From Haloplanus ruber (lineage in GTDB: Archaea > Halobacteriota > Halobacteria > Halobacteriales > Haloferacaceae), in NCBI RefSeq assembly GCF_024494725.1, contig NZ_JANHDK010000001.1:992001-1056000 (forward strand): a DNA stretch of 64,000 nucleotides. Direction: 5' to 3'. Positions 41,746-46,498 of this stretch are shown here, piece by piece; positions within the stretch are counted from its first letter, which is position 1; every line of letters starts with the position of its first letter. Under the pieces are notes generated by a model that did no database searches, was not told the origin of the DNA, and saw only the letters and a program-made list of their open reading frames with translations. Both the position numbers and the translations under genes were made by a program.

Positions 41746-42441
41746 TTACACGAGCGTCCGGACGGCGTCGACGAGAAAGACCACGCCGAACCCGGCGAGC
41801 ACGAGGGCGCTCGCGCCGGCGACGAGCGGGGCGAACTTGGCGACACGGCGCTGGGCCGCCCGGAGCGCGGCGGGAAAGCCGGTGATCCAGACGACGATTC
41901 CGAGGAAGAACCCGACGATGAGCGCCGGGCTGCCGGTTTGCACCACCAGCAGTCCGGCCAGGTCGGCGCCGACGTAGGGCGTGTACGCGAGAACGTCCAG
42001 CCGACCGGGTTCCAGTAGGCCGACGCCGATAGTCAGCCAGAAGAGGATCTGGTAGGGGTTGGTGAGCGCGAGGATGAACGCCTTCCGGAAGCCGGTGGTC
42101 GCTCGGGTTGGCAGGGTCGACCCGCCGGTCGGCACCGTCTCCGTGTCGCCGGCGGCGTCCAGGGCGGCCCCGTAGGCGAAATAAAGCATGAGGACGCCCC
42201 CGACACCGACCATGACGGCGCGGACGGTGGGGAACCGCTCAACGAAGGTGACGACGCCGAGCAGCGAACAGACGAGGAAAACGGCGTCGGCGGTCATCGC
42301 GCCCAAGCCGGTCCGGGCGCCCGCGAACCAGCCGTTGTTGACCGACTCCTCGGCGATGACGGCGTTCATCGGTCCTGGTGGGGCCGCGAGCGCGAGGCCG
42401 AAGACGACACCGGCCAAGAGCGACGGGAGGGGATTCGGCAC
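41746..42441 (-). CDS. LysE-family transporter
   Basis: 231 residues, six predicted helices. The N-terminus FGLALAAPPGPMNAVIAEES is the LysE-family motif, and TNPYQILFW appears in the middle. Such proteins export amino acids or related metabolites with proton or sodium exchange. The substrate is unknown. It stands upstream of the VOC gene end and 39 bases from the GDT1 gene end on the same strand. Confidence 0.9.
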   Translation of the reverse strand: MPNPLPSLLAGVVFGLALAAPPGPMNAVIAEESVNNGWFAGARTGLGAMTADAVFLVCSLLGVVTFVERFPTVRAVMVGVGGVLMLYFAYGAALDAAGDTETVPTGGSTLPTRATTGFRKAFILALTNPYQILFWLTIGVGLLEPGRLDVLAYTPYVGADLAGLLVVQTGSPALIVGFFLGIVVWITGFPAALRAAQRRVAKFAPLVAGASALVLAGFGVVFLVDAVRTLV

Positions 42442-42480: not shown

Positions 42481-43191
42481 TTACACCAGCGCCAGGACGG
42501 CCGTCGAGGCGGCGTCGACGGCCGTCTCCCAGACGGAGAAGCCGGTGGCGATGCTCAGGACGGTGTCGGCCGCGAAGAAGGCAAAGAGGCCGGCCGAGAA
42601 GAGGTGCGCCTTCCGGAGATCCAGCCGGTGGGAGAATCTGTGGAAAAAGAAGGCGTTGGCCAGGCTCACGGGGATGATGGCGAGCATCTCGCCGGCCCAG
42701 ATGGCCGGGCTGGCACCGTACTGAGCGGCGAGGCCGATGGTGACGAGTTGGGTCTTGTCGCCGAATTCGCCGACCGCCATCATCGCGAAGATGGGCACGA
42801 AGCCACCGAGTGCGTCCGGCAGTTCCCGGCCGAACACTCGCGGCTCGAAGTCCGTCGACAGCGACGTCATCCCGCCGTCGGTGGTCGCGGCGTCGACCGC
42901 CTCGGGATCGCCGTTGGACGGCGCAGACCGATAGAGCAGGATCGCAAAGACGAGAAACAGACCAGCGGTGAAGGCGTCGAGGACGACCGGCGGCAGGGCG
43001 CGCTGGAGTGCCTCGCCAAAGAGGATTTCGAGGGTGGTCCAGCCGGCGAAGGCCGCCCCCGCCGCGCTCACGACCACCATCGGGTTGTACCGGGTCGAGA
43101 GTCCCGCGATGATGAACTGCACCTTCTCGCCGGGCAGGACCACGAGCTGGGCGACGAAGGCGACGGTGAGAATCTCCAGCCAGCCCGTCAC
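42481..43191 (-). CDS. TMEM165/GDT1-family manganese/calcium exporter
   Basis: 236 residues, two three-helix repeats. The second copy carries the family motif E-x-G-D-K-T in GEFGDKTQL. In the first copy the motif is degenerate: VLPGEKVQF keeps Glu and Lys but loses the acid and Thr. GDT1 proteins export Mn2+ or Ca2+. The gene overlaps the upstream DtxR-type regulator by 4 bases (43188-43191), so the metal is most likely Mn2+ with expression controlled by that regulator. Confidence 0.88.
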   Translation of the reverse strand: MTGWLEILTVAFVAQLVVLPGEKVQFIIAGLSTRYNPMVVVSAAGAAFAGWTTLEILFGEALQRALPPVVLDAFTAGLFLVFAILLYRSAPSNGDPEAVDAATTDGGMTSLSTDFEPRVFGRELPDALGGFVPIFAMMAVGEFGDKTQLVTIGLAAQYGASPAIWAGEMLAIIPVSLANAFFFHRFSHRLDLRKAHLFSAGLFAFFAADTVLSIATGFSVWETAVDAASTAVLALV

Positions 43192-43909: not shown

Positions 43910-43923
43910 TTAGACACGTCTAA
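43910..43923. promoter_or_regulatory. Palindromic operator TTAGAC-AC-GTCTAA of the DtxR-GDT1 unit
   Basis: Perfect 6-base arms around AC, lying between the TATA box (43925-43931) and the regulator start (43895), over the expected transcription start. Arms of this kind (TTAG...CTAA) resemble known DtxR/MntR sites, so it is probably bound by the adjacent regulator itself. Confidence 0.65.
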
Positions 43924-43970: not shown

Positions 43971-45140
43971 TCAGACGCCCTGGCTCATCAGGTGGCTCCG
44001 GAGCAGGTCCGCCGTCTTCACGCCGGCATCGGCGTTGATCAGTACGACCGTCTCGTCGTCGCCGAGGGCGCCCCGCTCCGCGAGCGCCCACGCGCCGGCG
44101 GCGGCGGCACCGCCCGTCGCGCCCACCTCGGTACCCAGTCGCTGTGTCAGCGCCACCGCGCTCTCCAGCATATCGTCGTCGTCGACGGCGACGGCCTCGC
44201 CCTCGCTTGCCGCGATGGCGTCAAGCGCGAGCGCACCACCCGCGGGGTCGGGAATCTCGAGTTCACCACAGATGGTGTCGGGATACTCGACCGGGTGGAC
44301 CTCGCCGTCGCCGTCGTGGGCGTCGACGATGGGCGCACAGCCCTCGGCCTGGACGGCGTGGACCCGAGGCATTCGGTCGGTCAGGCCCAGAGTGACGAGG
44401 TCACGGAATCCGCGTTCGATCCCCACCAGCGTCTCGCCGGTGCCGACGGCGACGACGACGGCGTCCGGCGCCGTCCAGTCGCGTGCGCCGGCCACCTCGT
44501 AGGCCAGCGTCCGGTAGCCGTCGTGGCGGTACGGCGTCGTGAACTCCTGCAGCGAGTACCACTCGCGGGCCAGGTCGTCGTGGAGCGCGGCGAGCGCGTC
44601 GGGATACCGTCCGCCGCTCACGCGCATGTCCGTGCCGTGGACGTTCACCATCGCCTTGTTGGGGAAGGGTGCCCGGGAGGGGAGGAAGGCATAGCAGTCG
44701 ATGTCGGCCCGGCCGGCGTAGGCCGCAGCGGACTGGCCGGCGTTGCCGGCGGCCGCGAGTCCCAACAGGTCGGCACCCTGCCGGTCGGCCATCGTCACCG
44801 CAACCGAGAGTCCGCGGTCGAGGATCGTTCCTGTAGGGTTTCGCCCCTCGTCTTTGAGGAGGACCGCGCCGACGCCGAGGTCGGCGGCGAGGTCGGTGGC
44901 GTCGAGCAGCGGCGTTGCCCCCTCGGCAGCCGAGACGGCGTCCGCGGCGTCGACCGGCAAGAGCGCGTCGTAGTCCCACATCGACCGCGGCGCGGCCGGC
45001 AGGGCCGCGGGGTCGACGGCGTCGAGGTCGTAGACCGGGTCGAGCGGTGCGCCCGCGTCGCTCCGGCCGACGTGATCGAGGTCGTACCGCTCGCCGGTTG
45101 CCGTACAGTCGAGACCGAGGAGCCGTTCGGCGGTGTCCAT
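43971..45140 (-). CDS. Threonine synthase-like PLP-fold protein lacking the PLP lysine
   Basis: 389 residues, fold type II. The substrate loop (LAAAGNAGQSAAAYAG), phosphate loop (VVAVGTGETLVG) and N-terminal VLLKDEGRNPTG match threonine synthases. In true enzymes the motif continues as S-F-K-D-R-G, with the lysine forming the PLP Schiff base. Here it reads T-I-L-D-R-G, so residue 107 is leucine (codon CTC on the minus strand). It may therefore be a non-catalytic or differently working paralogue. It stands alone next to the DtxR unit and opposite the amine oxidase. Confidence 0.87.
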   Translation of the reverse strand: MDTAERLLGLDCTATGERYDLDHVGRSDAGAPLDPVYDLDAVDPAALPAAPRSMWDYDALLPVDAADAVSAAEGATPLLDATDLAADLGVGAVLLKDEGRNPTGTILDRGLSVAVTMADRQGADLLGLAAAGNAGQSAAAYAGRADIDCYAFLPSRAPFPNKAMVNVHGTDMRVSGGRYPDALAALHDDLAREWYSLQEFTTPYRHDGYRTLAYEVAGARDWTAPDAVVVAVGTGETLVGIERGFRDLVTLGLTDRMPRVHAVQAEGCAPIVDAHDGDGEVHPVEYPDTICGELEIPDPAGGALALDAIAASEGEAVAVDDDDMLESAVALTQRLGTEVGATGGAAAAGAWALAERGALGDDETVVLINADAGVKTADLLRSHLMSQGV

Positions 45141-45217: not shown

Positions 45218-46498
45218 ATGGACGACACACCGTCGGTCGCCGTCGCCGGCGCCGGACTGGCGGGGCTCGTCGCCGCGCGACACCTCGCCGACGCCGGCGC
45301 CGACGTCACCGTGTTCGAACGCCGCGAGGAGGTGGGCGGCCGGGTCCGGACCCGCCGCCGAGACGGATTCACCCTCGACCGAGGCTTTCAGGTCCTCTTT
45401 ACCGCCTATCCGGCCGTGCGCCGGGAACTCGATCTCAGCGCGCTCGACCTGCAGTCGTTCTCGCCGGGCGCCGTCATCGCTCGCCCCGGCGAGCGGTCGG
45501 TCCTCTCGGACCCGCTACGCGACCCGCTCTCGCTCACCGATAGCCTGTTCAACCGCGAGGTGACGACGACCGACAAACTCCGGACGCTCGCCCTCCGACA
45601 GCACGTGGGCGAACGCGACGAGACGGCCATCTTCGAGAGCCCCGACGACCGGATCGACGACTATCTCCGCGATTGGGGCTTCTCCGAGAAGTATCTCGAC
45701 AACTTCGTTGCGCCCTTCTACGGCGGCATCACGCTCGACCGCTCGCTGTCGACGTCCAAGCGCGTCTTCGAGTACACGTTCAAGGCGATGAGCGAGGGAC
45801 TGATCGCCCTCCCCGCGGAGGGGATGGCTGCCGTCCCCAAGCAGTTGGCGGCCCGGGCCCGTGAGGCCGGGGCGACGATCCGTCTCGACGACCCCGTCGC
45901 CGCGGTCACGAACGACCGAAACGGGAGGGTGACCGTCGAGGCCGAGCGTCGCACCGTCGACGCCGACGCCGCCGTCGTCGCCACCGACCCGCGAACGGCG
46001 AAACGCCTGACCGGCGTGGCGTCGGTTCCCACCGCCGCCCGCTCCTCTGTCACCCTGTACTGCGCCCTGCCCGACGGCCCTTCCCTCAACGACGCTCGGA
46101 AGATCCACCTGAACGCGGCCGACGACAAGCCGAACGCCGTCGTCCCGCTCTCGGCGGTGGCACCGAGCTACGCCCCCGACGACCGCCGACTGCTCTGTGC
46201 GACCTTCCTCGGCGACGACGTCCTCGATACGCCCGACGACGTACTCGTCGAGGCGACCCGCGAGGCGCTCGCGGCGTGGTATCCCGAACGCCGATTCGGC
46301 GGACTGTCGGGCGTCCACACCGACCGGATCGAGTTCGCCCAGTTCGCCCAGCCGCCGGGCGTCCACGACGACCTGCCGGGCGTCGACGACCCCGACGGTC
46401 CCGTCTACCTCGCTGGTGACCACACGGCGTGGTCGTCGATCCAGGGGGCGATGCGGAGTGGGCGAGAGGCCGCGGCAGCGGCGCTGTCGGAGCTGTAA
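45218..46498 (+). CDS. FAD-dependent amine oxidase / phytoene-desaturase-like protein
   Basis: 426 residues. The FAD Rossmann motif VAGAGLAGLVAARHLADAG is at the N-terminus, followed by the acidic FERREEVGGRVRT, and a C-terminal FAD contact VYLAGDHTAWSSIQGAMRSG, as in amine oxidases and carotenoid desaturases. The substrate is not readable; no carotenoid genes are next to it. The ATG at 45218 is backed by a TATA-like element. The longer upstream frame overlaps the threonine-synthase-like gene and is not real. Confidence 0.9.
   Translation: MDDTPSVAVAGAGLAGLVAARHLADAGADVTVFERREEVGGRVRTRRRDGFTLDRGFQVLFTAYPAVRRELDLSALDLQSFSPGAVIARPGERSVLSDPLRDPLSLTDSLFNREVTTTDKLRTLALRQHVGERDETAIFESPDDRIDDYLRDWGFSEKYLDNFVAPFYGGITLDRSLSTSKRVFEYTFKAMSEGLIALPAEGMAAVPKQLAARAREAGATIRLDDPVAAVTNDRNGRVTVEAERRTVDADAAVVATDPRTAKRLTGVASVPTAARSSVTLYCALPDGPSLNDARKIHLNAADDKPNAVVPLSAVAPSYAPDDRRLLCATFLGDDVLDTPDDVLVEATREALAAWYPERRFGGLSGVHTDRIEFAQFAQPPGVHDDLPGVDDPDGPVYLAGDHTAWSSIQGAMRSGREAAAAALSEL

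Follow-up and report, generated by a model that had tools for sequence, protein, structure and literature searches.

Our findings suggest, with a probability that we put at roughly 0.6, that a haloarchaeal family of threonine-synthase-like proteins has repeatedly dropped PLP and has been kept for a second role that does not use this cofactor, most likely ligand binding or regulation. The protein at issue, which we name KL, is the lysine-less threonine-synthase-like protein encoded at 43971-45140 (minus strand) of the window, that is, the whole 64,000-nucleotide stretch of Haloplanus ruber DNA analyzed here; it would be a haloarchaeal protein of the threonine-synthase (ThrC) branch of PLP fold type II that has ceased to use PLP. 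In what follows, "own family" refers to the taxonomic family of the window's genome, and Lys and non-Lys members are those with lysine or another residue at position 107. The features of the gene on which the argument turns are these:

43971-45140, minus strand: KL, lysine-less threonine-synthase-like protein of 389 amino acids (PF00291, 211 bits; AlphaFold2 mean pLDDT 97.4)
44820-44822, minus strand: Leu107 codon CTC at the position of the PLP Schiff-base lysine, aligned with the lysine of 2d1f, 2zsj, 6cgq and 1uim
44742-44744, minus strand: Asn133 of the asparagine loop, kept in KL, changed in 37/166 non-Lys versus 2/34 Lys members
44607-44609, minus strand: Arg178, family-specific (Asn in 25 ThrC rows, Glu or Gln in six paralogue rows)
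44430-44444, minus strand: GTGET, residues 233-237, where most lysine-bearing relatives have GGGVG as the glycine loop that binds phosphate
44256-44282, minus strand: PDTICGELE, residues 287-295, with P287, D288, G292 and E295 fixed in Lys and non-Lys members
43986-44000, minus strand: C-terminal RSHLM motif, residues 381-385, past the end of the ThrC alignment

The reading frame of KL is open throughout its 389 codons, which bears out the earlier judgement that a frameshift is unlikely. The motif NPTGTILDRG occupies residues 101-110, and in alignments with the four solved threonine synthases listed above the Schiff-base lysine position falls on Leu107. KL scores 211 bits against the Pfam PALP profile (PF00291, PLP fold type II; cut-off 35), and its best curated families are threonine synthases, every one of them under its cut-off (NF006050, 275.5 against 303; TIGR00260, 125.7 against 167.1). 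All six curated families matched by KL-family members at E <= 1e-30 are likewise threonine synthases. The AlphaFold2 model, computed with 124 aligned sequences, has threonine synthase 6nmx_D as its nearest PDB structure (E 1.3e-26, TM-score 0.88 normalised to the target), and on this predicted structure KL retains the fold. Membership of PLP fold type II is thus supported by profile and fold, and what fails in KL is the Schiff-base lysine together with the glycine-rich phosphate-binding loop. Zinc-ribbon-like cysteines are present in the N-terminus of the own-family consensus, and in the corresponding part of KL (45018-45140) only C12 is left.

The first-pass annotation had presented KL as one odd protein with leucine (CTC) in place of the Schiff-base lysine. 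The residue itself is confirmed, since none of 58 own-family orthologues, aligned and counted without the six rows that belong to a lysine-bearing paralogue, carries lysine at this position (Leu in 43, Tyr in 5, Phe in 3, His in 3, Val in 2, Ile and Thr in one each), and the codons used there are diverse across orthologues. A sequencing error at the residue 107 codon is excluded by this comparison of orthologous sequences. The oddity is real, but it is not an isolated case: KL belongs to a class-wide family in which residue 107 has switched repeatedly.

The genome search returned a KL match in 148/148 own-family genomes. Five weak own-family matches were searched again; in G012 the gene is cut by a contig end, and in G108 the N-terminal third is unmatched. 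Frame breaks or internal stops occur in the KL orthologues of 3/148 own-family genomes (G100, G114 and G127), which may be pseudogenes or assembly faults. Median dN/dS was 0.174 over 259 non-Lys pairs, which are not independent, and 0.151 over 50 Lys pairs, paralogues not removed, with 0.159 over 11 mixed Lys/non-Lys pairs, all by the Nei-Gojobori method on pairs 80-97 percent identical. These ratios indicate that purifying selection maintains the gene in the Lys and non-Lys states alike, and a loss of the catalytic residue that is conserved across species under purifying selection, as observed here, is what characterizes a pseudoenzyme. The notion that KL is merely a decaying gene or a sequencing error could appeal to the three broken orthologues and to the unmatched third in G108, perhaps assembly faults themselves; we give it next to no credence, and for the window's gene it is refuted by the 148/148 matches, the median dN/dS of 0.174 and the non-Lys state of 166/200 members.

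This last count rests on 200 non-redundant fetched loci selected for D288, E295 and R381, three residues that are accordingly fixed by construction. Lysine occupies residue 107 in 34 of them, a share to be read as a biased estimate because the queries with which the loci in all our sets were found were made from, or leaned to, non-Lys sequences. The 166 non-Lys members carry Leu (84), Ala (21), Thr (17), Val (15), Tyr (7), Arg (7), His (6) or Phe (5), as well as Ile, Gly, Gln and Glu in one member each.

The loss extends beyond the lysine. Although the strings AAGNAGQS (residues 130-137) and GTGET (residues 233-237) are both found in KL, the earlier statement that KL preserves the remaining pocket motifs did not hold, as GTGET is an altered phosphate loop: the GGGxG pattern is intact in 31/34 Lys members versus 0/166 non-Lys members, the three Lys members with a disturbed loop being L137, L288 and L289. 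An acidic residue lies within the phosphate loop in 124/166 non-Lys versus 2/34 Lys members, residue 370 is neither Thr nor Ser in 54/166 versus 0/34, and residue 293 is Gly in 33/34 Lys members and Glu in 122/166 non-Lys members. The PLP-contact roles assigned here to ThrC positions follow the literature on the enzyme. Together, the altered loop in 166/166 non-Lys members and the drift of residues 133 and 370 in some of them point to a loss of PLP binding, not to the loss of a single residue. An altered loop need not exclude phosphate, however, because GHG-type loops, which occur in several non-Lys members, are also found in the Lys-bearing relative L006.

Two kinds of Lys members depart from the common pattern. 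In L137 (Natrinema salsiterrestre), Lys107 stands amid a background typical of non-Lys members (loop TGTGTGL, E293), which suggests either a reversion or that the site is used differently. In L288 and L289 (genomes G245 and G247), Lys107 is kept, the phosphate loop is disturbed, N133 has become Asp, and the rest of the PLP site is gone.

A lysine displaced to another position could in principle take over. In the 58 own-family orthologues, lysine is found at columns 96 and 162 in 58/58, at 375 in 56/58, at 210 in 52/58 and at 243 in 32/58, and at columns 191, 300 and 387 in only 12-20/58. Columns 96, 162, 210, 243 and 375 are not replacements, because they are lysine as well in the lysine-bearing paralogue and in the canonical ThrC of the window's genome, L004. 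No conserved substitute lysine was found among these 58 orthologues.

Some lysine mutants of PLP fold type II can bind PLP as an external aldimine. KL might still be a PLP enzyme, working without an internal aldimine, through K96 or K162, or with PMP or an external aldimine, a reading to which the near invariance of K96 and K162 lends some weight, as does the retention of both N133 and T/S370 in 93/166 non-Lys members. We nonetheless consider it improbable: K96 and K162 are equally conserved in members with K107 and hence are not replacements, K96 is lost in L192 (Ala), L193 (Val) and L297 (Ala), and the intact GGGxG loop is missing from every non-Lys member. KL as a binder of free PLP was considered as well and rejected, the phosphate loop being altered throughout the non-Lys members and N133 and T370 in some of them.

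If PLP has been dropped, the question becomes what has been kept. Drifting and fixed positions were compared in 170 sequences of at least 300 bits (27 Lys and 143 non-Lys; six paralogues and over-long rows left out). Outside the own family, non-Lys members are loose at positions that are fixed in Lys members, among them 106, 107, 133, 234, 236, 237 and 371, a set that covers the lysine, both the asparagine and the phosphate loops and the segment following the last strand; the relaxation is not limited to the pocket, as many outlying positions appear in the same list. Fixed in both groups, in a list that is not exhaustive, are K96, D97, N101, T103, D108, R109, Y141, R156, K162, M164, N166, H168, R178, R205, E215, Q264, C268, P287, D288, T289, G292, E295, D321, D378, R381 and S382. 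Particularly, R156, K162, M164, R178, C268, D288, G292 and E295 are fixed but unlike ThrC, with residue 295 being Glu in the KL family and Arg in ThrC; one Lys member, L266, has Gln at 178. We take Arg160, Asn154 and Ser155 of the Thermus threonine synthase to be the residues that bind the substrate phosphate. At the corresponding positions of KL the arginine is kept (R205), and the asparagine is replaced by E199, which is Thr or Ser in Lys members.

These observations bear on a further possibility, namely that KL is a cofactor-free enzyme that uses its own side chains (for instance C268, H168, D97, E293/E295 and R178) in acid-base or covalent chemistry. Many of the invariant residues would suit a catalytic role equally well, and among the residues invariant in both Lys and non-Lys members many are charged or nucleophilic, in a gene under purifying selection. 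Additionally, E236 and E293 are fixed in 98/98 own-family-type sequences, whereas Lys members lack them or have them only rarely, as a new active site predicts. Outside the own family, however, E236 is found in only 10/45 and E293 in 23/45 non-Lys sequences, and one common new active site built on these two residues is unlikely because they are not in all non-Lys lineages; residue 107 itself varies freely, and the fixed set is common to Lys members too. We therefore regard cofactor-free catalysis as possible but doubtful.

The reading that we favor, in which PLP was lost and a second role kept, would proceed as follows. The ancestor would have combined a PLP reaction with a second role residing on a surface or cleft to which R156, K162, N166, H168, R178, R205, Q264, C268, the P287-D288-T289 stretch, G292, E295, D378 and the R381-S382 pair would contribute. 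Different haloarchaea would have lost the PLP reaction on several occasions while the second role persisted. This role would most likely be that of a non-catalytic ligand-binding dimer, either a sensor or a regulator of a partner, in which the two fold-type-II domains would close around a ligand, a small anion or an amino acid, and perform no chemistry on it. In the own family, E236, the first residue of helix 236-250 in the AlphaFold2 model, the helix by which the PLP phosphate would be held, may occupy the phosphate site. The first-pass annotation had offered a pseudo-enzyme, a regulator or a new chemistry; with the lysine gone, the frame intact and a separate thrC in the genome, a pseudo-enzyme or repurposed fold fits best.

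The family appears to be spread across the class. At E <= 1e-60 the family alignment matches 242/242 class genomes, a figure that does not prove an orthologue in each because this threshold also admits canonical ThrC; the lysine-bearing paralogue, too, scores far better than this threshold. A value of 1e-90 is reached in all class genomes but G149, G250 and G285. Among these, G149 and G285 contain the divergent members L195 and L214; in G250 no match exceeds 227 bits, and the best one is a ThrC. The best match in other classes of the phylum reaches 302 bits. The relatives, among the best 80 of 286, include Haloplanus, Haloferax, Halobellus, Halogeometricum, Halorubrum, Natrinema, Natrialba and Halobacterium.

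Two trees were used to count switches at residue 107. Tree 1 comprised 113 rows, outgroup included (a set thinned to 114 of 178 rows plus 5 outgroup rows, with the long branches L214, L195, L230, L189, L187 and L186 taken out), and the lysine-motif and loop columns were removed. Tree 2 comprised 111 rows, 107 of them counted, with more of family f3; columns 133, 293, 370 and 371 were also dropped, thinning kept 22 of 101 own-family-type rows and 79 of 90 others, and L187, L186, L188, L189, L194, L195, L214, L070, L071 and L226 were left out, together with rows of 330 filled columns or fewer. Both are quick searches with SH-aLRT support only, a weak backbone and many weak forks. On them, the fewest changes between Lys and non-Lys are 6 (tree 1) and 8 (tree 2), as root-free minima, and the fewest changes in the identity of residue 107 on tree 1 are 34. 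Loss-only counts were 8 on one tree, or 5-7 with forks grouped, and 19 on tree 2; because the outgroup rooted tree 2 within the own family, dividing it, the root-free minima alone are quoted as our estimate.

The phosphate loop follows the lysine in 5/7 independent pairs on tree 2, with 0 in the opposite direction (p 0.0625), and in about 4/5 on tree 1 (p 0.125), and residue 293 does so in about 3/7 on tree 2 (p 0.25). The coupling of lysine and loop across independent pairs is thus suggestive but not significant. Residue 107 is lysine in the 25 ThrC sequences compared, lysine having been one criterion for that set. Lysine can be argued to be the ancestral state because of these 25 ThrC sequences and of the FK/GGGVG pair in most Lys members; the change counts by themselves fit loss or gain alike, and gene replacement by transfer may also have contributed.

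The neighborhood of the gene bears on whether the two forms occupy one locus. In the window, KL is accompanied by the following features:

45218-46498, plus strand: divergent FAD-dependent amine-oxidoreductase-like gene, conserved neighbor (PF01593, 206 bits; synteny)
43910-43923, no strand assigned: palindrome TTAGAC-AC-GTCTAA between KL and the DtxR gene, a single exact copy in the genome
43188-43895, minus strand: DtxR-type metal-dependent regulator, conserved neighbor (PF01325, PF02742, PF04023)
42481-43191, minus strand: GDT1/UPF0016-type divalent cation antiporter (PF01169, 96 bits)
41746-42441, minus strand: LysE-type translocator (PF01810, 81 bits)

In 27 own-family stretches the FAD gene is present in 22, and the DtxR gene lies downstream within 2.7 kb in 18; of the exceptions, L048 has it at a distance of 5.5 kb and L042 on the opposite side, and 7 of the 27 stretches yielded none. 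The gene order of KL, with the FAD gene upstream and DtxR-GDT1-LysE downstream, recurs around two Lys members, L122 of Halobacterium bonnevillei and L125 of Halostella pelagica, the FAD match lying 4.8 kb upstream in the latter. Part of this order surrounds Lys members in Halorarius (LysE at L131; FAD and LysE at L154), FAD and LysE genes flank L288 and L289, and DtxR, GDT1 and LysE adjoin an Ala member in Halospeciosus (L150), around which the FAD gene was not detected. The four neighbor genes were not found around nearly all Natrialbaceae members, L151 keeping the FAD gene. The shared locus makes the Lys and non-Lys forms positional orthologues in several families rather than a pair of ancient paralogues.

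The palindrome at 43910-43923 is probably, judging from its position and conservation, the DtxR auto-operator of a DtxR-GDT1-LysE unit. It occurs within one mismatch of twelve in 25/34 named loci with KL-DtxR adjacency, a count made without a shuffle control, and at up to two mismatches the window holds 2 matches against 0.59 expected. On this arrangement, DtxR would regulate its own gene along with GDT1 and LysE, leaving KL, which lies upstream of the operator, outside the unit, and for this reason a metal-response role for KL is not proposed.

KL is not the sole threonine synthase candidate of its genome. Eight other PALP genes score above the family cut-off there (L001 to L006, L008 and L009), and the Schiff-base lysine is present in all eight, by alignment or motif. 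A canonical thrC does lie elsewhere in the genome: L004 carries the lysine and reaches 289.8 bits against TIGR00260 (cut-off 167.1), versus 125.7 for KL. The lysine-bearing paralogue (L072-L075, L077, L078 and L291), which has Glu or Gln at 178 and is without E295, is another matter, as a search of the window's genome at E <= 1e-40 returned KL alone and no close lysine paralogue.

These data also bear on the idea that KL is an inactive subunit of mixed oligomers, regulating an active PLP enzyme that would be either the canonical ThrC or the lysine paralogue. Deoxyhypusine synthase, which supplies a precedent for this idea, belongs to a different enzyme family from KL, and YggS/PLPHP, another protein with which KL may be compared, has another fold. 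In trypanosomatids, a catalytically dead deoxyhypusine synthase paralogue is reported to activate its partner; like KL, it has kept the fold without the catalytic residues, and it is conserved for a regulatory role, as KL may be, the partner in that case being its active paralogue (PMC3663545). As the search at E <= 1e-40 recovered no close lysine paralogue, only the distant ThrC, which is present, could be the partner of KL, and no thrC occurs among the identified neighbors; an inactive subunit is thus, in our assessment, rather unlikely. YggS/PLPHP resembles KL in being a relative of PLP enzymes that is apparently without catalytic activity (PMC9601805), and differs in that it binds PLP, whereas KL has lost the lysine.

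With respect to ThrC itself (TIGR00260; NF006050/PRK08197; 6nmx, 2zsj, 2d1f, 1uim), KL shares the fold, the order of motifs, Arg205 in the PYR/PHR motif and the asparagine loop. It differs in lacking the Schiff-base lysine, in its phosphate loop (GTGE versus GNAGN), in having R178 and E295 instead of Asn and Arg, in its extra C-terminal RSHLM segment, and in failing the curated cut-offs. With the Lys members L122 and L125, KL shares the invariants R178, PDTxxGxxE and RSxLM along with the gene neighborhood; unlike KL, these members keep K107, GGGVG and T370, and because of this they are probably working PLP enzymes.

A literature search by title and by the start of the abstract, with subscription papers mostly outside its scope, found neither a natural lysine-less fold-type-II family nor the KL gene, and the KL family may thus perhaps be an apparently undescribed pseudoenzyme-type family on the PLP fold. 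In PMC8305020, the terms threonine, thrC, pyridoxal and PLP gave only two matches, both in the reference list. A Haloferax thrC3 mutant (HVO_2969) is reported to be rescued by glycine, serine and threonine added together (PMC4300041); HVO_2969 would be either the canonical ThrC or a KL orthologue.

Our results point to a correction of annotation: KL-family proteins are apt to be named threonine synthases, because all six curated families that they match are threonine synthases, and most of the members read cannot use PLP in the known way. It is also conceivable, though on balance we doubt it, that one haloarchaeal enzyme locus has shed its vitamin-B6 cofactor many times in parallel and kept an unchanged task, which had come to depend partly or wholly on the protein's own side chains; if true, one protein at one locus would exist in nature as a series of forms, some PLP-dependent and some PLP-free. 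Together, our findings suggest that PLP-type and non-PLP-type versions occupy the same locus across one archaeal class, which would open the conversion of a cofactor enzyme to study, and orthologue swaps in the tractable Haloferax and Halobacterium could probe how and why such an enzyme becomes something else.
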